The notes under the pieces are model-generated. The model saw only the letters and a program-made list of their open reading frames with translations. It was not told the origin of the DNA and did no database searches. This document shows, one piece after another, positions 13,291 to 45,613 of a stretch of 47,032 bases of DNA (position 1 is the stretch's first letter; every line of letters starts with the position of its first letter). A program made the translations under genes and the position numbers. The stretch is taken from contig MKGP02000081.1 in NCBI GenBank assembly GCA_001913845.2, positions 1-47,032 of the forward strand, in the 5' to 3' direction. Origin of the DNA: Limnothrix sp. CACIAM 69d (lineage in GTDB: Bacteria; Cyanobacteriota; Cyanobacteriia; CACIAM-69d).

Positions 13291-15633
13291 TTAGCTTTGG
13301 GCAACCACCACTCGATCGCGCCCGGCCCATTTCGCTTGATAGAGAGCAGCATCGGCCGCTTGCAAAAGGGTGGCTACGGTAACCGCATGTTGCGGAAAAC
13401 TGGCCACTCCAAAGGAGGCCGTGATTGCGCCCAGGGTTTGCCCCCCATGGCGCAAGGACAAATACTTCAGCTCTTGGCACATCACCTCCGCCCGTTGCAC
13501 CGTTTCTTCGAGGGTGGCTCCGGGCAAAATCAGCGTCATTTCTTCGCCACCATAGCGACAGGCGATATCGGAACCTCGGATGCGACTTTGCAGAAATTGC
13601 GCCACTTCCTGCAACACCAAGTCTCCGGCATCGTGGCCAAAGGTGTCGTTGAATTGTTTGAAATGGTCAATGTCCAGAATGATCGCCCCGATCGGGGAAC
13701 GATCGCGCCGGGCCCGACAAACCGCTTGCTCCAGGGCTTCCTCCAAATAGCGTCGATTATAGAGGCCGGTGAGCGGGTCGCGGATGCTTTGTTGTTGTAA
13801 GGTTTCCCGCAATCGCAAGTTGGAAATGGCCAAGGCCACCTGCTCCGCCACGGTGCGGGCGAGCTGTTGTTTTGGAGCCGAAAGGGAATCGTGCTGCGGG
13901 GTGCAAAGATACAGCAGTCCCAGGGTTTCGCTTTGGGCCATCATCGGCAAACAAAGGGATTCTGCTTCGGATCCCAGGGGGTGGGCATGGCGACAGAGCA
14001 GCCCCGTATGTTTGTGTTCTGCCCAATGGATGCGGCCGCGACGCAGGGCCCAGCAATCATCGGGATAGAACAGGGTTTCCCCGATCGGGTCAGGGCCCCA
14101 AGTGGCCACCGCCTCCAGGGCCACGCGGGTCGATTCCAGGGTAAACAGGGCCCCGGAACAGCCAGGAAACAGCGCTTGCACCAGATCGGCCACGGCCGTG
14201 TAGGCTTCCTCCACGGTCACGCAAACCTGAAGGAAATCAATCATTTCACTCAGCAGGGCCATTTCGCGGTTGCGAAACTTCAGCTCCTCAATGCGGCGCT
14301 CCAGTTGTTGATTGGTTTCCTGAAGCACCTGTTCGGCCTGCCTGGTTTGGGTCACATCCCGAAAAGTCAGGGTCAGGCCGTCGCCTAATTTCACCGCCGT
14401 CAGTTGCAACCAAGCATCGCGGCCGTCCGCTTGGGTGATTCGGAGCGATCGACTGAAAGCTTGGCCAGTTTCCACCACCCGCACATAGGCTTCAAAGAGG
14501 CCGTCTTGGCGCACAAGGGGCACTTGATCAAGCAGTTGTCGGTTCAGCAGTTGATTGCGCGATCGCCCCAGCACCATTTCGGCCGAAGCGTTCACCGCCG
14601 TCCACAAAAAGTCCACAATTTGCCCGGCTCCGTTGCGGATCGTGCGCAGGGCAGCGATCCCATCGATCGAGCTGTCGAGAATATCCGCCAGTTCTTGTTG
14701 GGTGCGGGCCAATTCGCTAATGTCCGTCAGGACTCCCCAAAGGATATCTTCCCCATTGACCGCGCTGTGGCGCACCGCCCGCACCAGGCCATGAACAATG
14801 TTTTGGTTGCGGTGCTCAAACCGCTGAATCAGTTGAATGCAGTTGGCCTGGTTCACCTGCACCGCCTGCCGCAGATTGTTGAGGGTCGATCGATCTTCCT
14901 CAATGAGCCGCTGTTCCCAAGTGGCCCACTCATCGGCCAACTCCGAGGGGCCATAGCCCAACAGGGCCTTCCACCGAGGCGACAACACCAGGCGATCGGT
15001 CGTTAGGTTCCATTCCCAAGCCCCATCGTTCACCACTTGGGCAACCCCATCGCCCACTTGTCCTAGGAAATGGTTTAAACCTGCTGACCAGTAGCCATGC
15101 ACCGGCTGCGAACAAATTAGCGGGGAATAGTCTGATTCTGGGGTTGATTCTGAGGCTGGTTCTGACAACTGACCAGCCAGGCCGCCCCGTTCCACCACCG
15201 CTTCCAGCAAAGCAGTACGGGAAATGACCCCCGCAAAAACTCCCTGCTCCTCTAGCAACACTAACCAGGCGCATTTTTGAGCCTGAAACGTGTCCCAAGC
15301 GGTTTGCAAATTGGTCTGAGCGGGCAAGGTCACGGGCGGTCTAGCCAGGCTCATGAGGGCGGAGGTGGCCAATTCCCGCTGGGTCGCCACGGCCCAGGCC
15401 AGCTCGCTCACCGTCAGCACCCCGATCGGCTTCTCGCCCTGGGCCGTCGGCAACACCAGCACAATCAATTGTGATTCAGCCATCTGCGATGGGTGAATTC
15501 CCTGAAGATGCTGCACCATGTCTGCAATAGTCTTGTCCGCTGAAATCACCAGCGCTTGCGTTGCCGCCAGGTAGCCAGCTTCGCCCAGGGACAAGGAACG
15601 GACAGCGGGAATAATTTGGTGAGAATCAAGCAC
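13291..15633 (-). CDS. CBS-PAS-PAS-GAF-GGDEF diguanylate cyclase
   Basis: A 780-residue protein read from a GTG start. The order is: a tandem CBS-like pair (about 5-155, VLPTAQGEKPIGVLTVSELA; LLEEQGVFAGVISRTALLEAV), PAS 1 (about 205-310, WEWNLTTDRLVLSPRWKALLGY), PAS 2 (about 320-430), a GAF domain (about 465-610) and a C-terminal GGDEF domain (about 620-775). The active-site loop reads RYGGEEMTLILPG (GGEEM at 695-699), with a product-inhibition site RGSD at 686-689, five residues upstream. It should make cyclic di-GMP in response to ligands of the CBS, PAS or GAF modules. The Phe-to-Met change at the fifth signature position is unusual, but the catalytic Gly-Gly-Glu-Glu is intact. No transmembrane segment is seen. 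The spacer upstream is 700 bp. Confidence 0.9.
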   Translation of the reverse strand: MLDSHQIIPAVRSLSLGEAGYLAATQALVISADKTIADMVQHLQGIHPSQMAESQLIVLVLPTAQGEKPIGVLTVSELAWAVATQRELATSALMSLARPPVTLPAQTNLQTAWDTFQAQKCAWLVLLEEQGVFAGVISRTALLEAVVERGGLAGQLSEPASESTPESDYSPLICSQPVHGYWSAGLNHFLGQVGDGVAQVVNDGAWEWNLTTDRLVLSPRWKALLGYGPSELADEWATWEQRLIEEDRSTLNNLRQAVQVNQANCIQLIQRFEHRNQNIVHGLVRAVRHSAVNGEDILWGVLTDISELARTQQELADILDSSIDGIAALRTIRNGAGQIVDFLWTAVNASAEMVLGRSRNQLLNRQLLDQVPLVRQDGLFEAYVRVVETGQAFSRSLRITQADGRDAWLQLTAVKLGDGLTLTFRDVTQTRQAEQVLQETNQQLERRIEELKFRNREMALLSEMIDFLQVCVTVEEAYTAVADLVQALFPGCSGALFTLESTRVALEAVATWGPDPIGETLFYPDDCWALRRGRIHWAEHKHTGLLCRHAHPLGSEAESLCLPMMAQSETLGLLYLCTPQHDSLSAPKQQLARTVAEQVALAISNLRLRETLQQQSIRDPLTGLYNRRYLEEALEQAVCRARRDRSPIGAIILDIDHFKQFNDTFGHDAGDLVLQEVAQFLQSRIRGSDIACRYGGEEMTLILPGATLEETVQRAEVMCQELKYLSLRHGGQTLGAITASFGVASFPQHAVTVATLLQAADAALYQAKWAGRDRVVVAQS

Positions 15634-29109: not shown

Positions 29110-31500
29110 TTAGCGCGATCGAATCACCGATAGCAAACTGGAGCGATCGTCTGTCCAAAGTTGGCTGGGTGGTTGGGGCGGAGCCGGTTGCCATTGGGTT
29201 TGGGGCCGATCGATTAACCAATTCAGATCCTGCGGAGAGCGGGCGATTGCCACCCAATGGGAAGGGGTTTTACCGATTGCTTTTTCTGATTCCAAAATTC
29301 GCAAATCCCAGCGATGAATCGCCGTTAAACGCAAGTCTTGGCTAATGGCTCCCAAGACGGGCAACAGGTCAAGATAGCGGTTCGTAATGTTAACCACAAT
29401 CAAGCCTCGATCGGTTAGTTTGTTCAGGTAGCTGGCAATGGCTTCACGGGTAATTAAATGCACAGGAATGGAGTCGGAGCTAAAGGCATCCATAATCACC
29501 AAATCTAGGGAGCGATCGCCCACTGTTTGCATTTTTAAACGGCCATCCCCAATTTCCACCGCTACCTTGCCCTTCGACAGTTCCAAAAAATTGAAATAGG
29601 CGGGATTTTGGGCAATCAACTTCACCGTGGGATCAATTTCATAAAATGTCCATTGCTGATTGGGCTGGGCATAGCTGGCCAACGTACCAATGCCCAAGCC
29701 CAAAACCGCCACCCGATCGCGCCGAGATTGATTAAACCCCGCAAAAAATTCCCCGATCGGGCCCGTTTCTGTGAAGTAGGTGAGCGGTCGATCGCGCCGT
29801 TGGGGCAGCAGGCTTTGTTGACCGTGGAGTGTGGAGCCGTGAAGCAAGGACATGACCTGTCTTGAGCGATCGCGCACCACCCGATTCACTCCAAAAAAGC
29901 TGCGATCAATTAACAGCACTTCGCCCCGTAAGCCCACGGAAAATTGCATCATTAAAATAATCGCCAGGCCGGCAGAAATGATCTTGGTTTTGCGCAATTG
30001 CAGCGCCCAGCCAATTAAGGCCAGCAAGCCAAAGGCAACGCAATAGGCGGCCCAATAGTCTGCTAGATGATTGAAATTAATGCCTGCTAACAGCGCACCA
30101 AACCCCAGCCCGATCGCGATCCAACTCCACTTGGGCAAGCGGTGGGAGTTAATCACCGACAGCAGCGTCAAAATCAGAATCAGGGGATATTCTTGGGTTG
30201 TCGGAAACAGGTAAGGAGCAGCGATCGCGTTAAACGATCCGCCCAAGGCTCCCCCCAAAGCAATCCAGAAATAAAACTGCGTCAGGTAGGTTACGGATGG
30301 CTTAATGAGCGCCAGAGTTTGATGGCAAACAAAGGCCGCGATCGCAAACCCCAGCCAGTGAAACGGCAACATGACCCACAAATTTTGGGCCCCATCCAAG
30401 CGCGACCAAAACACCAATGGAGTCACCAACAATGGCAAACTGGCGATCGATAGTGGATAGGCGATCGCGCTCCATCGCCAATTGGAAAAAGCGACAATAT
30501 AGGTTAGTAGATAGAGGCTGAGGGGAATTGCCCAAAAGAGAGGAACCGCCGCCAAATCCGTAGTGACATAGGTGGTTACACCCAGCGATAAGCTGGCAGG
30601 CAAGAAGGCAAATAGGGCCCATTGGAGTCGATCGCGCCAAGTGGGTTGTAAGGGTTTGTTTGGCGAGCTGTCAGGCTCGGAAGCAAATGTTAAGCGATTA
30701 ACCACTGCGCCATTTTTTGAACTGGCTGGTGCATTACCGAGGGTAGTTAATTGTTCTGGTAATGTCGTTAACTCTTCTAGGCTTTCGAGTCTTTTTAGCT
30801 TTTTAAAGTCTCCTAAGCTTTCAAAATGTTCTGATCCTGGTTGTTGTTTCGATTGCGAAAATTGTTCTAAATTATTTGCATCGCCCGAAGGATTCCAATT
30901 GCGATCGCGCCAGGTGATCAGCACACAGGCTCCAATTAGAAGCAGCTCAACTCCATAGCCCAATTGCCAAAATTGTCGCTGTTCCATTAGGGAAAAAAGC
31001 GGCTCAATAGCCCCTGGATATCCCAAAACCCCTAACAAGCTGCCCGCATTACTCGCGGCATAAAGGACATAGGGATCTTTGCCCAAATCTAAGCGAGTTC
31101 GCGATACCCACCGTTGCAACAAAGGAGCCGTTGCGGAGAGGGCAAAAAACGGCAAAGCCACCCCTAAAAACAAAATTTGGAGCAGCGCCATTAAGGGGCG
31201 ATCGACAGTAATGGTTGACTGACTAAAGACTTGGTTGAACTGACCCCAAAGCGCCAAACCGCCCCCGATCGCCACAACTCCATGAATCCAAAACTGAGAG
31301 CGCAACGACGGGCGATCGCTCAACCAAGCCGCATAGCCATAGCCAGCCAACAGCATAATTTGAAAGAAAGCCTGGCAAACATTCCAAACGGCCGGGGTTC
31401 CTCCCAACAGAGGTAGCAGGCTTTTTGCAACAATAAATTGCACCCAAAATAGTAAAAAAGCGCTACCAAAGAGCGCCGCCGAAAATATTGCTTTTTTCAT
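29110..31500 (-). CDS. Membrane-fused spermidine synthase-like protein
   Basis: A 796-residue protein. Residues 1 to about 560 hold many transmembrane helices, starting MKKAIFSAALFGSAFLLFWVQF, with PAVWNVCQAFFQ near the N-terminus. They are interrupted at about 205-255 by a hydrophilic Leu/Glu/Ser-rich loop of low complexity (FESLGDFKKLKRLESLEEL). The C-terminal part (about 570-790) is an aminopropyltransferase/methyltransferase-like Rossmann domain with VLGLGIGTLASYA (about 598), FYEIDP and IMDAFSSDSIP (about 674). Fused MFS/spermidine-synthase-like proteins are widespread, but their reaction is unproven and may not be spermidine synthesis. The gene is single, and its start at 31500 is followed by a typical N-terminal helix. 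Confidence 0.85.
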   Translation of the reverse strand: MKKAIFSAALFGSAFLLFWVQFIVAKSLLPLLGGTPAVWNVCQAFFQIMLLAGYGYAAWLSDRPSLRSQFWIHGVVAIGGGLALWGQFNQVFSQSTITVDRPLMALLQILFLGVALPFFALSATAPLLQRWVSRTRLDLGKDPYVLYAASNAGSLLGVLGYPGAIEPLFSLMEQRQFWQLGYGVELLLIGACVLITWRDRNWNPSGDANNLEQFSQSKQQPGSEHFESLGDFKKLKRLESLEELTTLPEQLTTLGNAPASSKNGAVVNRLTFASEPDSSPNKPLQPTWRDRLQWALFAFLPASLSLGVTTYVTTDLAAVPLFWAIPLSLYLLTYIVAFSNWRWSAIAYPLSIASLPLLVTPLVFWSRLDGAQNLWVMLPFHWLGFAIAAFVCHQTLALIKPSVTYLTQFYFWIALGGALGGSFNAIAAPYLFPTTQEYPLILILTLLSVINSHRLPKWSWIAIGLGFGALLAGINFNHLADYWAAYCVAFGLLALIGWALQLRKTKIISAGLAIILMMQFSVGLRGEVLLIDRSFFGVNRVVRDRSRQVMSLLHGSTLHGQQSLLPQRRDRPLTYFTETGPIGEFFAGFNQSRRDRVAVLGLGIGTLASYAQPNQQWTFYEIDPTVKLIAQNPAYFNFLELSKGKVAVEIGDGRLKMQTVGDRSLDLVIMDAFSSDSIPVHLITREAIASYLNKLTDRGLIVVNITNRYLDLLPVLGAISQDLRLTAIHRWDLRILESEKAIGKTPSHWVAIARSPQDLNWLIDRPQTQWQPAPPQPPSQLWTDDRSSLLSVIRSR

Positions 31501-34086: not shown

Positions 34087-37000
34087 ATGACTAGCCCACT
34101 GCAACCAACTTCGCCCACTTTGTGGCCCAGCCTTGATGGTTACGAAATTACTGAGCAACTTTACTCAGGATCTCGCACAGCCGTTTACCGGGCAATTCAG
34201 ACGGATACAGGGCGATCGGTTGTCATCAAAATCCTTTGCCATGAGTATCCCAGCTTTAATGAGCTGACGCAATTTCGCAATCAATATAGCATCGCCAAGT
34301 CTTTAAACATTACGGGTATTGTATATCCCTACAGTCTAGAAGCCTATGGCAACAGTTATGCCTTGGTGATGGAAGATTTCAGTGCTATCTCCCTAGAAAA
34401 TTATCGAAAACAATACTCGATTTCGTTAGCTGACTTTCTATCTATTGCCTTACAGGTATCCGAAATTCTCCATGACTTACACCAAAGCCGCGTTATTCAT
34501 CGAGATATTAAGCCTGCCAATATTTTGATTCAACCCAGCACCAAAGCAATCAAGATTATTGACTTTAGTATTGCTTCCGTGCTGCCCAAGGAAACTCAGG
34601 AAATTCAGAACCCGAATATTCTTGAGGGAACCATTGCCTATTTAGCCCCTGAACAAACCGGCCGCATGAATCGCGGCATCGATTATCGCACAGACTTTTA
34701 TGCCCTTGGAGTCACCTTTTATCAATTACTGAGTGGTCGGCTCCCCTTTGAAGCAACGGATCCCCTCAAGCTCATTCACTGTCACATTGCCAAAACACCC
34801 ACAGCGCTTGACCAGGTGAATCCAGCGATTCCTCACATGGTGGCGGCCATTGTCTCTAAATTAATGGCCAAAAATGCAGAACATCGCTATCAAACCGCGA
34901 AGGGGTTAAAGCACGACCTTGAGGAATGTTGGACACAGTGGGAGGCCACGCAACAAATTCAGCCTTTTGAGTTGGGAACTCGAGATTTGAGCGATCGATT
35001 CCTAATTTCTGACAAACTCTACGGGCGCGATCGGGAGGTTGCTCGTTTATTAACAGCCTTTGAACGTGTTGCTCAAGGAAGCGCAGAATTGATGCTGGTG
35101 GCGGGATTTTCGGGAATTGGTAAAACTGCCGTTATTCATGAAATCCACAAGCCCATCACTCGCCAAAAAGGCTATTTCATTAAGGGAAAGTTCGATCAAT
35201 TTAATCGCAATATTCCTCTGTCGGCTTTTGTGCAAGCCTTTCGCGATTTAATGAGCTATTTGCTTTCTGAGCCAGATAGTCAGTTAAACCAATGGCGAAC
35301 CAAAATTCTGCAAGCGTTGGGAGAAAGTGGACAAGTCCTGATTGAAGTCATTCCCGAACTGGAGACCATCATTGGGACTCAGCCAGCCGTGCCCGAGCTA
35401 TCAGGAACAGCCGCTCAAAATCGGTTTAATTTTCTGTTTCAGAAGTTTATTCAAGTTTTCACAAGGCCCGATCATCCCCTTGTCATTTTTTTAGATGACT
35501 TACAGTGGGCAGATTTAGCTTCTTTGCAACTCCTGAAGGTTTTGATGGGGGATAGTGCCCACTTACTCATGCTGGGGGCCTATCGCGATAATGAGGTTTC
35601 GCCGATTCACCCCCTCATGGTCACCTTGGAGGAATTGGTCAAAGAAAAAGCGATCATTAATACCATTACGCTAAATCCACTGAGTCTAGAACATACCAAT
35701 GACTTAGTGGCGGATACGCTGCGTTGCCCACCCGATCGAGCCTTGCCCCTCACTGAATCAATTAGTCGAAAAACCCAGGGCAATCCTTTTTTCACAACAC
35801 AATTTCTAAAGTCGCTCCATGAGGAAGGCTGGATTACATTCAACCGAGAAGCCTGCTATTGGGAATGTGATATTTCCAGTATCTATACCCTAACCACAAC
35901 TGATGATGTGGTGGAGTTTATGGCGGCGCAACTTCAAAAGCTGCCTGAATCCACTCGATCGGTCTTGAAGCTAGCGGCTTGTTTGGGTAACCAATTCGAC
36001 TTAACAACCCTCTCAATCATTGCTCAACAGTCTGCCGCAGAAACAGCCAATGCCCTTTGGAAGTCGCTGCAAGAGGGCTTGGTTTTACCTAACAGTCAGG
36101 TCTATAAATTTTTTCAGCCGGAGGTACTAACCCCAGCCGATCGGGAGGTGCAGGAACCGCAGGTTAATCCAACCTATCGTTTTTTACACGATCGCGTCCA
36201 ACAGGCCGCCTATTCCCTGATTGATCCGACTCAGAAACCCATGACCCATCTAATGATCGGTCAACTTTTGCAGACTCAGCTCTCGGGTTCAGAGTTAGAA
36301 AATAGACGATTTGATATTATTAACCACTTAAATTTAGGCCAAGACTTACTCACCACCGATGCAGAGCGAGTTTCCTTGGCTCAAAGTAATTTGGAAGCTG
36401 CCCAAAAAGCCAAAATGGCAACGGCCTATGCGGCTGCCAGCAACTTTGTTAACACGGGGTTATCGCTCCTATCCAATGAGCGTTGGCAGAAACAATATCA
36501 CTTGAGTTTAGAGTTACATATCTTAGCGGCCGAGGTGGCATACCTCATGGGTGACATTGCCGAGATGGACAATCATTGTCAACAGGTTGTAGCGGCAGCC
36601 CAAAACCCATTAGACAAGGTAGAAATCTACAAAATTCAAATTAATGCCCTCGCCACTCGTAACCAAATGTCAGAGGCGATCGAGATCGGGGCCAATGCAC
36701 TGTCGGAACTGGGTGTGGCCTTGCCCACCCAAGCCGACTCAACCATGAGTCATCAAGTGCTTGAAGCGTTAGCCCAGCAACTTGAAGATTATGTCATTGA
36801 GGATCTGGGGCATCTTGCTCCGATGACCAATCCTCGGATCATGGCAGCTATGAAGTTAATGGCGGCACTTTTTGCACCGATCTACATGGTGAAGATAGAA
36901 CTCTTTCCATTGGTTTGTGCGCGGATGGTGAGCTTATCTTTGGAATTTGGTAACAGCTCTGTTTCCATGATTGGCTACAGTGGCTATGGCCTAATTTTGA

Positions 37001-39501
37001 CCAATTCTTACAATGACTTTGAAAAGGGACATCAATTTGGCAAGGTGTCCTTAGAGTTGCTCGATCGCTTCAGTGCTCCTGAATATCGGGCCATGACCCT
37101 TTTTCTATTTAGTATTTTTATTCAGCATCGCCATAACTCTTTGCGATCGACTATTCCCATGCTCAAGGAAGGATATCTTTTGGGTATGGAAACTGGCAAT
37201 TTACTCTACGCAGTCTATAGCATCAATAATTATTTCTGTAATCAACTTTTCTCTGGCTGTTGCTTAACTGATATGGAACCCGAGATGGAGCAATATTGCA
37301 TCATCTTGAGTCAAATGAAGCGAGAGAATCCTGTGAGTTATCTCCAGATGCAGCAACAGACGATTCAAAGCTTAATGATCAGCACTGATTATCCTGATCG
37401 GCTGATTGGTCAGAGCTATGATGAGACGGTGATGTTTCCTCAGTATGTACAAAAAAATGAGCTGACGGGTTTAGCAATTGCTTATATCTATAAATTAATT
37501 TTGGCTTACCTTTTTGATCATTACGAACGAGCCATTGACTATATTAATGCAGGCTCTTCTTGCGTATACATCATGACGGGACATATTCATATTCCAGTTT
37601 TTCATTTCTATGCAGGGTTAACCTATTTTCGAGCTGCCACTACTCAGTCCAGCTTAGAGCGATCACGGGCTTTGTCTCTCGGAGAACAACAGCAAACTGC
37701 CTTAGCCGCTTGGGCTAATCAATCACCAATTAACCATCAACATAAGGTGGATTTGTTGGAAGCAGAAAAGTGCCGCGTGCTGGAAAAGTTTTACGAAGCC
37801 GGTATTTGGTACGATCGGGCCATTGATGGAGCCAAGGCACAAGGATTTTTACAGGAAGAAGCTTTAGCGAATGAGCTGGCTGCTAAGTTTTACTTGGATT
37901 GGAACAAGGAAAAATTCGCCGCCAGTTATATGCAGGAAGCTTATTACTGTTATGCCCGCTGGGGGGCAAAGGCAAAGGTAAGCGACCTTGAGCAACATTA
38001 TCGAAAATTGCTCTCACCGATTTTGGAATCGGCTTCTGAGAAGTTAAATCATCTGGAAACATTTGTCTCCATTGCGACAGCAACCTATAGCTCCACTGCC
38101 ACACAAAATTCCAGCAGCCAAAATCTCAATATCATGCTCGATTTGGCGGCTATCATTCGAGCATCTCAAAGTATCGCCAGCACCATCCAACTAGATGAAC
38201 TACTGCAACAATTAACGCAAATTATTTTGCAATATTCCGGTGGTGACCAATGCATTTTGATGGTTCCTGATAGCGATGGTGAATGGTTAGTACGAGCGAT
38301 CGCCTCCACGGAAACGACCAAGCTTTGCACCATCCCCCTTCAGAACGAAAACTTCCTGCCTTTACCCCTCATTCAATGGGTGAAAAATACCAGAGAATCG
38401 GTGGTGATCAATGAAGGTCAAACCCATTTGCCGATCGGGGATGCTTTTCTTGATCGCCCGATGCCCCAAAGTATATTGTGCTTACCGATCCTCAACCAAT
38501 CGCAATTGGTGGGCATTTTATATCTCAGTAACCAAGCTGCGAAAAATGTGTTTACGAGCGATCGGCTCTTGGTTCTAAATTTCCTTTGTGCCCAAGCAGC
38601 CATTTCACTGGAAAATGCTCGGCTCTATCAGCAAGCACGCACCTATGCTCAACAGCTTGAACAATCTCAACTACAAATTGTTCAAAGCGAAAAAATGGCA
38701 TCTTTGGGAAACTTGGTGGCAGGAGTTGCCCATGAAATCAACAACCCGATCGGCTTTTTAAACGGCAGCATTCAAAATTTGCAAGATTCTTTTCAGGATC
38801 TCATTGGGCATTTAGAACTCTATCAGCAACATTATCCCAACCCTGAACCCAGCATCACAGAAAACGCGGAAGAGATTGATTTAGACTTTCTAAGTGAAGA
38901 TCTGCCAGCTTTGTTGAAATCGATGCAATTGGCAACCGATCGCATCAAAGGTATTAGCAATAGTTTGCGTACCTTTTCACGGGCAGATACTGAATATAAA
39001 ATTCAAGCCAATTTGCATGAAGGAATCGACAGCACATTATTGATTCTGAAATATCGACTGAAAGCCAATGAGCATCGCCCTGCCATTGAAGTCATTCAAA
39101 ACTATGGAGACATTCCAGCAATCGATTGCTTTCCAGGGCAGCTTAATCAAGTGTTTATGAATCTTTTGGCCAACGCGATCGACATGTTTGATGAGCTAGC
39201 GCAAGGGCAATCATTTGAAGAATTAGCTGCCCATCCGCAAACCATTACGATTGGCACTCGACAGGTGGATAATCATGTGCAAGTGACCATTCAAGACAAT
39301 GGCAAGGGCATGAACGAGGAGCTACAAGCCAAGATTTTTGATCCCGCCTTTACCACCAAGGCCGTTGGCAAGGGCACCGGATTGGGCTTAGCGATCGCTC
39401 GCCAAATTGTGGTGGACAAACATGGCGGCAGCTTAATAGTGCGATCGGAGGTGGGCCAGGGGTCACAGTTTTTGATGAGTTTGCCCATTCGTGGTTCCTG
39501 A
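34087..39501 (+). CDS. Giant hybrid kinase: Ser/Thr kinase, AAA ATPase, GAF, histidine kinase (HstK type)
   Basis: A 1804-residue protein. Order: Hanks-type kinase (about 20-285; Lys48, HRDIKPAN at 138-145, DFS at 159-161 in place of DFG); AAA/STAND ATPase (about 305-600; Walker A GFSGIGKT at 340-347, Walker B VIFLDDLQWAD near 465); a long helical TPR-like region (about 770-1330); GAF (about 1355-1525); and a histidine kinase with phospho-acceptor His1549 in VAGVAHEINNP, N-box NLLANAID (1692-1699) and G-box GKGTGLGLAIARQ. The same architecture defines the cyanobacterial HstK family, which joins eukaryote-type and two-component phosphorylation. No response regulator is adjacent. No transmembrane helix or Shine-Dalgarno is evident. 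Its base composition is AT-richer than neighbouring genes, hinting at a different history. Confidence 0.92.
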   Translation: MTSPLQPTSPTLWPSLDGYEITEQLYSGSRTAVYRAIQTDTGRSVVIKILCHEYPSFNELTQFRNQYSIAKSLNITGIVYPYSLEAYGNSYALVMEDFSAISLENYRKQYSISLADFLSIALQVSEILHDLHQSRVIHRDIKPANILIQPSTKAIKIIDFSIASVLPKETQEIQNPNILEGTIAYLAPEQTGRMNRGIDYRTDFYALGVTFYQLLSGRLPFEATDPLKLIHCHIAKTPTALDQVNPAIPHMVAAIVSKLMAKNAEHRYQTAKGLKHDLEECWTQWEATQQIQPFELGTRDLSDRFLISDKLYGRDREVARLLTAFERVAQGSAELMLVAGFSGIGKTAVIHEIHKPITRQKGYFIKGKFDQFNRNIPLSAFVQAFRDLMSYLLSEPDSQLNQWRTKILQALGESGQVLIEVIPELETIIGTQPAVPELSGTAAQNRFNFLFQKFIQVFTRPDHPLVIFLDDLQWADLASLQLLKVLMGDSAHLLMLGAYRDNEVSPIHPLMVTLEELVKEKAIINTITLNPLSLEHTNDLVADTLRCPPDRALPLTESISRKTQGNPFFTTQFLKSLHEEGWITFNREACYWECDISSIYTLTTTDDVVEFMAAQLQKLPESTRSVLKLAACLGNQFDLTTLSIIAQQSAAETANALWKSLQEGLVLPNSQVYKFFQPEVLTPADREVQEPQVNPTYRFLHDRVQQAAYSLIDPTQKPMTHLMIGQLLQTQLSGSELENRRFDIINHLNLGQDLLTTDAERVSLAQSNLEAAQKAKMATAYAAASNFVNTGLSLLSNERWQKQYHLSLELHILAAEVAYLMGDIAEMDNHCQQVVAAAQNPLDKVEIYKIQINALATRNQMSEAIEIGANALSELGVALPTQADSTMSHQVLEALAQQLEDYVIEDLGHLAPMTNPRIMAAMKLMAALFAPIYMVKIELFPLVCARMVSLSLEFGNSSVSMIGYSGYGLILTNSYNDFEKGHQFGKVSLELLDRFSAPEYRAMTLFLFSIFIQHRHNSLRSTIPMLKEGYLLGMETGNLLYAVYSINNYFCNQLFSGCCLTDMEPEMEQYCIILSQMKRENPVSYLQMQQQTIQSLMISTDYPDRLIGQSYDETVMFPQYVQKNELTGLAIAYIYKLILAYLFDHYERAIDYINAGSSCVYIMTGHIHIPVFHFYAGLTYFRAATTQSSLERSRALSLGEQQQTALAAWANQSPINHQHKVDLLEAEKCRVLEKFYEAGIWYDRAIDGAKAQGFLQEEALANELAAKFYLDWNKEKFAASYMQEAYYCYARWGAKAKVSDLEQHYRKLLSPILESASEKLNHLETFVSIATATYSSTATQNSSSQNLNIMLDLAAIIRASQSIASTIQLDELLQQLTQIILQYSGGDQCILMVPDSDGEWLVRAIASTETTKLCTIPLQNENFLPLPLIQWVKNTRESVVINEGQTHLPIGDAFLDRPMPQSILCLPILNQSQLVGILYLSNQAAKNVFTSDRLLVLNFLCAQAAISLENARLYQQARTYAQQLEQSQLQIVQSEKMASLGNLVAGVAHEINNPIGFLNGSIQNLQDSFQDLIGHLELYQQHYPNPEPSITENAEEIDLDFLSEDLPALLKSMQLATDRIKGISNSLRTFSRADTEYKIQANLHEGIDSTLLILKYRLKANEHRPAIEVIQNYGDIPAIDCFPGQLNQVFMNLLANAIDMFDELAQGQSFEELAAHPQTITIGTRQVDNHVQVTIQDNGKGMNEELQAKIFDPAFTTKAVGKGTGLGLAIARQIVVDKHGGSLIVRSEVGQGSQFLMSLPIRGS

Positions 39502-41089: not shown

Positions 41090-43237
41090 CTAGGTAGACA
41101 GCAACAGAGACGGCATCGATCGCCCGCCACCGTTGGGCAGCAGGGGCGGTATGGGTCGATCGCCCAAATTGCCCCGAAGCAGGAATCGATCGGGCAAATC
41201 CACCGCCGATTCCGCCTCCTCCAGCGCAGGCGGCGCAGGGGGCAGTTCCACCACAAAGGTCGTGCCCTGATTGGGTTCCGACTCAAACCAAAGCCGGCCC
41301 CCATGCTGCTCCACAATGGTTTGATAGGCGATCGACAGGCCCAACCCCGTCCCCTGCCCGATCGGCTTCGTACTAAAGAAAGGATCCAAAATGCGATCGT
41401 GCACCGCCTCCGGAATGCCGAGGGCATTGTCTCGAATCCGAATCACCGCCCGCCCGCTGGCCGGATCCAGGGCCGTAGCCAGCCAAATGGTGGGACGTTC
41501 TTCCTTGGCTAACCATGGGGGCGACTCGATCGCCACCGTCAACGCATCGATCGCATTTTCAATCAACGCCGCCAAGGCCTGATTCAGCGGGCCCGGATAA
41601 CAAGTGATGGCCGGCAATGCTCCCCACTCATGAATGAGCTGAATCGAATGGAGTTGCTCACCGCTGCGCAAGGCATTTAGCCGCCCTTGAAACAACACCA
41701 ACGCGCTATCTAAACTCTCGTTGAGGTTAATGCTCTTCACAATCGCCTCATCCAACCGCGAGAAGGCCCGCAGCGATCGAACAATTTTTTGGATTCGCTC
41801 CACGCCCGATCGCATCGATTGCAGCATTCGTGGCCAATCTTCTGCAATATAAGCAGGATCCACCTCCTCCACCAACGCTTCCAGCTCGGCCGAAGGAGCC
41901 ATCCCCGATCGCGCCCACTCCGCTTGGTAGACATTCACCAAGTCCAACAAATCCTGGATATAGTGGCCCGCGTGGGCCAAATTGCCCGCAATGAAGGCCA
42001 CCGGATTGTTCACCTCGTGGGCCACCCCCGCCACCAACTGCTCCAGCCCCGCCAGCCGTTCCGCCTGCACCAACTGGGCCTGCTGCCACTTCAGGGCCTG
42101 CAACGCCGCCTCTAACTGAGCCGCCTTGTCCGCAAGCTTGGCCTCCGCTGCCTGTCGCCGCCGAATTTCCGCTTGGGCCTGTTCATACAGTTCCGCCTGC
42201 AACACGGCCACGGCCAACTGATGGGACAACCGCTCCAACAAATGAATTTCGTTCGGATGCCACTGGCGCGGATTTTGGCAATGGTGAGCGATTAACAGAC
42301 CCCAGAGCCGGCCATGGTCAGAGATGGGCAACACCAAATTAGCCCGCACTTGGAACCGACGTAGCAAATTGCGATGGCACTCGCTGAGGGGGGCCGTTTC
42401 AATGTCGCTGATCGCGCTAATACGTCCCTGTTGGTAATCCTGGGCGCGGCTGACCTGAAAACAGGTGTCCTCGATCGTCACATCCAACGACGCATCCCAA
42501 TCCTCGCCCACGGATTCGGCCACCACCATGCCGCTCCAGTCGGGGTTAAAGCGATAGACCACCACTCGATCGGTCTGCAGCAGTTGGCGCACCTCATTCA
42601 CCGCCGTGCTCAACACCGCCGTCAAGTCCAGGTCTTGGCGAATGCGCTGGGTCACGCCGCTCAGGAGTTGTTCCTCTTGCAATTGCCGGTTTTGGCGCTT
42701 GCGGGCTTCCACCGCTTCGGTCACATCCGTTTGTACACCGATGTAGTGGGTCAAATGGCCCGCCGCATCATGCACGGGGCCGATCGAGAGGCGATTCCAA
42801 AAGGGCCGGCCATCCTTGCGGTAATTGAGCAACACCACCTCGCAGGCCTCGCCCCGGCGAATGGCCTGGCTGAGTTGCTCCACCGCCACCGGATCCGTGT
42901 CCGGCCCCTGCATAAACCGGCAGTTACGCCCCAACACCTCTTCCCGGCGGTAGCCTGTCATGGTCTCGAAGGCTTCGTTGCAATAGATCAGGGGGCGATC
43001 GGGCCGGCTCATATCGGCGATCGCAATGCCACAACTGGCCGAAGCCATCGCCCGTTCATACAACTCCAGGGTCACCGGCAATAACCCTGGACTCGCTTGA
43101 TTTTCCATAAGCCTCCAAGCTTCAGGATCTGACGCGTCCTCTGATTGGTTTGTGGTTTGCCATCCGGCCAAACATTCAGAAACATTCAACAGCGCTGTTG
43201 AATCTTCAGACACCCTCTCGGATGACTGGGCATTCAT
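41090..43237 (-). CDS. LOV + cyanobacteriochrome-type GAF histidine kinase (predicted photoreceptor)
   Basis: A 715-residue protein from the ATG at 43237; a TTG at 43267 is less likely. Residues about 55-175 are a LOV-type PAS domain: GRNCRFMQG holds the flavin-adduct cysteine (Cys106), followed by NYRKDGRPFWNRL and GVQTDVT with the expected Asn, Asn and Gln. Residues about 195-355 are a GAF domain with DTCF (257-260), the DXCF motif, and Cys287-His288 in LSECHRNLL, the bilin-attachment pair of cyanobacteriochromes, followed by QVRANLVLPI and LWGLLIAHHC. A coiled coil leads to a histidine kinase with His407 (VAGVAHEVNNP), an N-box (ALIENAIDAL) and a G-box (GQGTGLGLSIAYQ). Motifs predict flavin and bilin binding, that is, dual light input; neither is proven. 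It is an orphan kinase with no response regulator nearby. Confidence 0.88.
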   Translation of the reverse strand: MNAQSSERVSEDSTALLNVSECLAGWQTTNQSEDASDPEAWRLMENQASPGLLPVTLELYERAMASASCGIAIADMSRPDRPLIYCNEAFETMTGYRREEVLGRNCRFMQGPDTDPVAVEQLSQAIRRGEACEVVLLNYRKDGRPFWNRLSIGPVHDAAGHLTHYIGVQTDVTEAVEARKRQNRQLQEEQLLSGVTQRIRQDLDLTAVLSTAVNEVRQLLQTDRVVVYRFNPDWSGMVVAESVGEDWDASLDVTIEDTCFQVSRAQDYQQGRISAISDIETAPLSECHRNLLRRFQVRANLVLPISDHGRLWGLLIAHHCQNPRQWHPNEIHLLERLSHQLAVAVLQAELYEQAQAEIRRRQAAEAKLADKAAQLEAALQALKWQQAQLVQAERLAGLEQLVAGVAHEVNNPVAFIAGNLAHAGHYIQDLLDLVNVYQAEWARSGMAPSAELEALVEEVDPAYIAEDWPRMLQSMRSGVERIQKIVRSLRAFSRLDEAIVKSINLNESLDSALVLFQGRLNALRSGEQLHSIQLIHEWGALPAITCYPGPLNQALAALIENAIDALTVAIESPPWLAKEERPTIWLATALDPASGRAVIRIRDNALGIPEAVHDRILDPFFSTKPIGQGTGLGLSIAYQTIVEQHGGRLWFESEPNQGTTFVVELPPAPPALEEAESAVDLPDRFLLRGNLGDRPIPPLLPNGGGRSMPSLLLST

Positions 43238-43639
43238 GGTGTTTTCCGCCGCACCCTGCAACGACAAACAGCGTTCAAGGTCGATCCCTGGTGGATCCCG
43301 AATCCTTCATTGTTCCGGGTCAGTCCAGGGTGATCAAGAGCTTGGTTAAAAAATTTCGCGATGCAAATGCTGTTGATTAGGATTGGTTTTCGCAGAATTT
43401 TATTTCCCTCATCTCATTCTAGAAGTGATTGCAGGAATTGATTGGGTCGGCGGCGGCTGCCGGCCATGGCGCGATGGGAGCAGTGGGAGTGTTGCAGGAG
43501 AATTGTGGGGGCGTTGCGGGAACGTTGTGGGAGCATTGCGGGAACGTTGATCGATCGCACAAGACAGACCAAGGCAGACGGATTATTGTTGGCTGTTATT
43601 GTGGTTTTCGATTGATGTTGTGGTGTCTGGTGGCGATTC
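43238..43639. other. Divergent spacer with degenerate repeats
   Basis: 402 bp between the photoreceptor kinase and the peptide-binding lipoprotein genes. The part at 43470-43549 is G-rich and repetitive. No gene was recognised. Confidence 0.5.
43513..43549. repeat. 22-bp direct repeat, two units
   Basis: gttgcgggaacgttg (43513-43527) recurs as attgcgggaacgttg (43535-43549), 22 bp apart, within a looser gggag/gttg array starting near 43475. Confidence 0.6.
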
Positions 43640-45510: not shown

Positions 45511-45604
45511 GACCTGGACCCGCGCAATCCCAACGCCCGAACCGTGTCAGAGCCGGAAGGCAGCAGCACTAAGGGATGCTTGAGATAGGCGCGGTCTCCG
45601 GGTC
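45511..45604 (+). ncRNA. ffs: Signal recognition particle RNA (4.5S)
   Basis: About 94 nt from gacctggacc to ccgggtc. The apical helix carries the SRP signature: GUCAG, AGCC, the GGAA tetraloop, GGCA and GCAGCAC, which is the Ffh-binding domain IV. The ends pair (gacctgga-cccgcgc with gcgcggtctccgggtc), closing a hairpin of bacterial size. The RNA joins Ffh for co-translational targeting to membranes. A T-run follows directly (tctcttttttt, to 45613) and should end transcription. Exact ends are inferred from the pairing. Confidence 0.93.
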
Positions 45605-45613
45605 TCTTTTTTT
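45590..45613 (+). terminator. Terminator of ffs
   Basis: The closing GC-rich strand of the SRP RNA helix is followed by a run of seven T. Confidence 0.6.

Follow-up and report, generated by a model that had tools for sequence, protein, structure and literature searches.

The 47,032-nucleotide stretch of Limnothrix sp. CACIAM 69d analyzed here (contig MKGP02000081.1, hereafter the window) carries on its minus strand a gene for a 715-residue protein in which a LOV domain, a GAF domain of the cyanobacteriochrome (CBCR) family and a histidine kinase follow one another. The sequence contains the residues needed for flavin-adduct formation and for a two-cysteine bilin site in one frame with the kinase. 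We consider it likely that the protein is a dual-chromophore sensor histidine kinase, which would transmit flavin-adduct and bilin signals via one helical stalk to one histidine. All component families are known; what appears new is their combination, a LOV domain and a CBCR in one kinase. The domain and motif assignment lies far above chance level, and the pairing of a LOV domain with a two-cysteine CBCR is both conserved and rare.

Domain architecture and predicted chromophore sites

The open reading frame (ORF) lies at 41090-43237, as in the original prediction, and runs on the minus strand from an ATG at 43237 to a stop at 41090. In a Pfam analysis of the 715-residue product, PAS_9 (residues 71-174, E 1e-24), GAF (204-345, 6e-27), HisKA (from residue 399, 2e-8) and HATPase_c (550-668, 5e-23) all scored above the cut-off. 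The parts of the gene, in window coordinates, are:

41090..43237, minus strand: LOV–CBCR GAF–histidine kinase gene; 715 aa, start ATG 43237, stop 41090
42713..43075, minus strand: LOV domain and the helix leading into it, residues 55-175; PAS_9 at 71-174, best PDB matches are LOV domains
42920..42922, minus strand: Cys106, predicted flavin-C4a adduct cysteine, in the NCRF motif; constant in 8 orthologous proteins
42638..42721, minus strand: LOV-to-GAF linker helix, residues 173-200; continuous in the AlphaFold2 (AF2) model, with a 54-residue Gln-to-Arg spacing
42188..42646, minus strand: DXCF-type CBCR GAF domain, residues 198-350, as supported by Pfam, TePixJ alignment, tree and structure match
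42461..42463, minus strand: Cys259, predicted second (DXCF) cysteine, in DTCF; on the Cys of TePixJ DPCF, constant in 8 orthologous proteins
42377..42379 (Cys-His pair 42374-42379), minus strand: Cys287, predicted canonical bilin-attachment cysteine, followed by His288; on the Cys-His of TePixJ and PPHK, with Cys287 constant in 8 orthologous proteins
42038..42205, minus strand: putative signaling helix between the GAF domain and the kinase, roughly residues 345-400; from the modeled helix 328-444 and the GAF-Cys-to-His spacing
41798..42070, minus strand: dimerization and phospho-acceptor region, about residues 390-480, with His407 in HEVNNP (42017-42019); HisKA
41234..41590, minus strand: HATPase_c catalytic domain, residues 550-668; Pfam, with N, G1, F and G2 boxes

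The LOV signature claimed earlier, GRNCRFMQG with Cys106 followed by N138, N148 and Q169, is present. The PAS_9 segment has LOV domains as its best solved relatives, the closest being the histidine-kinase LOV domain 9vf7 (E 1.6e-41), followed by LOV domains of phototropins and aureochromes. NCRF, both Asn residues and the Gln align without gaps with the solved LOV domains. The window LOV domain carries the residues required for flavin-adduct chemistry, and it probably binds a flavin.

The GAF signature is likewise as described, with Cys259 in DTCF and with Cys287 and His288 in LSECHRNLL. The best solved relatives of the GAF domain are bilin-binding CBCRs, PPHK being the closest by sequence (E 2e-55), followed by miRFP670nano and TePixJ. 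Had Cys259 or Cys287 fallen outside the CBCR cysteine columns, the original prediction would have failed; both lie exactly on the chromophore cysteines of TePixJ (DPCF and ECH). In the gap-free alignment, IEDTCF stands over IEDPCF and ECH over ECH, and GLLIAH is also common to both proteins. The Cys259–Cys287 spacing of 28 is equal in TePixJ and in every orthologue measured. When the Foldseek matches of the AF2 model were re-aligned by VIA, the CBCR JSC1_58120g3 gave a Z score of 25.2 and TePixJ (4glq) one of 23.9, with a root-mean-square deviation of 2.1.

Since the PPHK type, nearest by identity, is devoid of the second cysteine, a tree of 70 Cys-bearing GAF domains was built. The expanded red/green (XRG) domains AnPixJg2, 6bhn and Slr1393g3 formed one clade (support 100/99), and PPHK, miRFP670nano and their relatives formed another of seven rows (95/84); the window GAF domain belonged to neither. 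It grouped with the LOV-CBCR GAF domains of its own family among DXCF domains on an unresolved backbone, with TePixJ on a long branch. An XRG identity was rejected (approximately unbiased (AU) test against grouping with XRG, p 7e-45), and Ile (IEDTCF) replaces the Trp of the WXDXXL motif by which XRG domains are defined, DXCF domains being spread over several lineages (PMC11284453). The NpR3784/PPHK lineage was rejected as well, because the clade of miRFP670nano and PPHK leaves the window GAF domain outside. Taken together, these results support a DXCF-type two-cysteine CBCR, in which bilin binding and color are predicted features.

Both chromophores might be bound by a protein whose GAF domain is a phycocyanobilin (PCB)-binding red/blue or other dual-cysteine CBCR instead of a blue/green one, with blue then compared with red. 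We regard this as doubtful. PPHK, the nearest solved GAF domain by sequence, counts in its favor, having reportedly been solved in red- and green-absorbing states (6OAP/6OAQ). Three positions have been named as governing the isomerization of PCB to phycoviolobilin (PVB) (PMC11284453). The window GAF domain has Ile at the site of the XRG Trp, Thr258 at the second position and Ile316 at the site of MCC3606390g2 Ile1076. Thr is a PCB-type residue (PMC11284453), which again favors the red/blue alternative; however, the two Ile residues agree in the alignment with PVB-binding TePixJ, and the domain falls outside both the XRG and the NpR3784/PPHK clades. The blue/green assignment therefore remains preferred.

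Conservation, rarity and origin of the pairing

Together with the window protein, seven orthologues make up a set of 8, drawn from all six genomes examined of the family and from one genome each in two other families. The LOV-GAF(-kinase) order is the same in 6/6 family genomes, the other five having sensor identities of 98, 78, 62, 61 and 59%, and the copy in genome G005 ends at a contig end ahead of the kinase. The orthologue in the second family (genome G032) is 51% identical, and that in the third (G471) is a protein of 650 aa with NCRF, DTCF, ECH and HEINNP. Cys106, Cys259 and Cys287 are constant in 8/8 proteins, down to about 45-50% identity and across the three families. N138, N148 and Q169 are constant in the aligned orthologues, and Gln169 and the kinase His are kept wherever the sequence covers them. 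The ratio of nonsynonymous to synonymous substitution (dN/dS) against genome G001 was 0.08 for LOV, 0.15 for GAF and 0.23 for the kinase, LOV thus being under the tightest constraint within the gene; the low values of LOV and GAF reflect purifying selection. In G003 (L020) and G005 (L021), the first GAF domain has DTCL and Cys-Tyr, and in G003 it is accompanied by a second tandem GAF domain with intact DTCF and Cys-His, which suggests a duplication with division of labor.

A LOV+GAF profile was searched against 386 species in the phylum and 390 in the class; it detects a LOV domain immediately ahead of a GAF domain, and the counts cover that order alone. The pairing had been thought uncommon, and an intact LOV domain directly ahead of a two-cysteine CBCR was indeed found in only 8 proteins among the 390 species of the class. 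A ninth, variant case (G212) has NCKF for NCRF and a DRCF/PCH GAF domain and belongs to a larger kinase with multiple PAS domains. Further high-scoring proteins combined a LOV domain with a GAF domain lacking one or both bilin cysteines (the Tlr1612-like G034 and G047, and G110) or had Ser in place of the LOV Cys (G198, G297). A search for related loci by protein returned PAS-GAF relatives only. A separate GAF group (L050, L051, L052, L053, L054, L080) has E[IV]FP for DXCF and PCL for Cys-His and often stands behind a LOV or LOV-like PAS domain.

Whether the pairing descended as one protein or arose repeatedly, by LOV domains taking the place of PAS domains ahead of CBCR GAF domains, was assessed from the tree and the linkers. 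The GAF domains of G032 and G471 lie apart from those of the window family, a single clade was nearly rejected (AU p 0.065), and the PAS-GAF linker register is alike with or without a LOV domain. Nevertheless, a p of 0.065 is no rejection of one origin, the deep branches are weak, and DTC, domain order and kinase type are common to all three families. A repeated origin is quite possible, if somewhat less likely than not.

The spacing from the LOV Gln to the GAF Arg was 54 in 36/38 PAS-GAF pairs, LOV or non-LOV. A distance of 153 between the LOV and GAF cysteines, seen in nine proteins, was considered as a special coupling constraint and rejected, as the 54-residue linker is generic. Because this linker is equal whatever the PAS domain, it represents a generic chassis and is no evidence for LOV-CBCR coupling.

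Proposed signaling path and points against it

In the AF2 model, built on a seven-row alignment, pLDDT was about 85-93 across most of residues 70-390, the sensor region. A single unbroken helix (173-200) connects LOV to GAF, and a single helix (328-444) runs on into the kinase. The spacing from the GAF Cys to His was either 120 or 127 in single-GAF orthologues without the G471 insertion, i.e., one heptad (7) apart, which fits the expectation for a coiled-coil stalk (PMC6798134). The claim of an intact histidine kinase was borne out for His407 in HEVNNP and for the N (IENAIDAL), F (DPFFSTK) and G2 (GQGTGLGL) boxes, but not entirely for the G1 box (DNALGI), the first Gly of which is Ala.

From these data we infer flavin and bilin binding, a blue/green color, signal relay along the helices, control of His407 by both sensors and a partner encoded elsewhere, which would combine as follows. 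The LOV domain, as its sequence suggests, would hold a flavin and form a Cys106 adduct in blue light that decays in the dark. Phycocyanobilin made by PcyA would be attached at Cys287 of the GAF domain, a step that the sequence also supports; Cys259 would add reversibly to the bilin C10 and probably aid isomerization to phycoviolobilin. With PCB at Cys287 and this Cys259 chemistry, the likeliest photocycle would lead from a blue-absorbing dark state to a green/teal-absorbing product that green/teal light resets. LOV, helix 173-200, GAF, helix 328-444 and His407 would lie in series on one stalk. Blue light would then set both switches and green light reset the bilin switch only, so that the output would reflect blue intensity (through the thermally reverting LOV domain) and the recent blue/green ratio (through the bistable CBCR). 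As none was found adjoining the gene, the response regulator receiving the phosphoryl group is proposed to be unlinked.

Several observations weigh against this scheme. At the site of the helix-Fα Arg, the window LOV domain has Ser123, whereas orthologues L018 to L022 have Arg. In phototropin LOV domains, this Arg touches the phosphate of flavin mononucleotide (FMN), and its replacement could weaken FMN binding. The contact is, however, a secondary, variable and non-universal feature, and LOV membership is retained with Ser123. Phe260 is replaced by Leu in G003, G004 and G005, and His288 by Tyr in G003 and G005. The Ala in the G1 box is unusual and occurs across the genus, with Gly in the orthologue of G004. 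The kinase part of the AF2 model is poor, with pLDDT below 50 past residue 565, and is not interpretable. Finally, Pfam scans of the window genes and of orthologue neighbors found no response regulator, some neighboring ORFs being unscanned.

Some of these observations would also fit a protein with a single photoactive sensor, in which either the CBCR GAF domain works and LOV serves as a flavin redox or structural PAS domain, or the reverse, the other domain acting as a relay. Light-inert PAS domains with the identical 54-residue linker are very common in PAS-GAF pairs, such that LOV could serve as a plain PAS domain, and both Ser123 and the change of the canonical Cys-His to Cys-Tyr in two orthologues point the same way. 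However, an ordinary PAS domain requires none of Cys106, N138, N148 and Q169, which are constant in the aligned orthologues, LOV is the part most constrained against G001, and both GAF cysteines are invariant. We therefore judge a single-sensor protein unlikely and retain the dual-chromophore kinase.

Genomic context and relation to known systems

PcyA is encoded in the host genome (NCBIfam equivalog, above cut-off), and PCB should therefore be available to the GAF domain. No second LOV domain was found in the genome at E 1e-8 or better, two weak PAS matches lacking the Cys. No BLUF domain was found in a genome search that did not extend to cryptochromes.

Within the genus, genes for an M24 peptidase and for an ATP-binding cassette (ABC) solute-binding protein remain syntenic with the kinase gene. 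No linked response regulator that could be the kinase partner was found among the ORFs scanned in the window or next to the orthologues. Other features of the window are:

43483-43549: short tandem repeat of 11/22 bp (CGTTGCGGGAA-like) in the gap that separates the divergent kinase and solute-binding-protein genes
34087-39501, plus strand, two genes away: 1804-aa hybrid of Ser/Thr protein kinase, AAA_16 ATPase, GAF and histidine kinase
45511-45607, plus strand: bacterial small signal recognition particle (SRP) RNA (RF00169, 64 bits)
29110-31500, minus strand: 796-aa ORF without a Pfam match at E 1e-5
13291-15633, minus strand: CBS-PAS-GAF-GGDEF diguanylate cyclase on the same contig

In contrast to PixJ, a chemoreceptor with DPCF, the window protein places one DXCF GAF domain, with DTCF, between a LOV domain and a histidine kinase. 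PPHK (6OAP) similarly has two serial sensors ahead of a GAF-linked kinase, but has DQYF, lacks the second cysteine and groups with the NpR3784 type; its first sensor is phosphorylation-responsive and not a LOV domain. The cyanobacterial LOV-GAF cyclic di-GMP (c-di-GMP) enzymes of the Tlr1612 type, of which the G034 and G047 loci are probably orthologues, share the intact LOV domain followed by GAF at equal linker length. Their GAF domain, however, has neither bilin cysteine, and the NCBIfam model describes a c-di-GMP phosphodiesterase, not a kinase. Among better-known proteins, LOV-GAF pairings are of this type, with a GAF domain outside the CBCRs. LOV histidine kinases and the YtvA family also have LOV upstream of a HisKA/HATPase_c kinase, but without a CBCR GAF domain in between, and the window protein scores under the NCBIfam cut-offs of these families. 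Ppr of Rhodospirillum centenum and the neochromes unite blue and bilin photosensors in one polypeptide, with a histidine kinase likewise at the end of Ppr (PMC5812497, PMC9614035); unlike the window protein, Ppr joins photoactive yellow protein to a bacteriophytochrome, neochromes are eukaryotic phytochrome-phototropins, and neither has a CBCR. As natural multi-photosensor proteins, a 2022 review gives neochromes, Ppr and multi-CBCR receptors, with no LOV-CBCR protein named among them (PMC9614035). No natural LOV-CBCR kinase was found in the literature searched by LOV-CBCR names, which is weak evidence as subscription journals lie mostly outside its coverage.

It is possible, though less likely than not, that the protein is a natural two-chromophore logic element, whose output would be set jointly by a flavin adduct that reverts thermally and by a bistable bilin switch with two cysteines, that its PAS-GAF chassis of fixed register received LOV domains more than once, and that it serves as the only LOV- or BLUF-based blue-light receptor of the organism. 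If both chromophores work, it would be a natural kinase reading flavin and bilin signals on one helical stalk. Because each input would be separately switchable, the combination of signals by serial sensor domains could then be tested by light alone, and since its linker could apparently be exchanged, in register, for the one in ordinary PAS-CBCR proteins, the protein would provide a ready scaffold for two-color optogenetic kinases.
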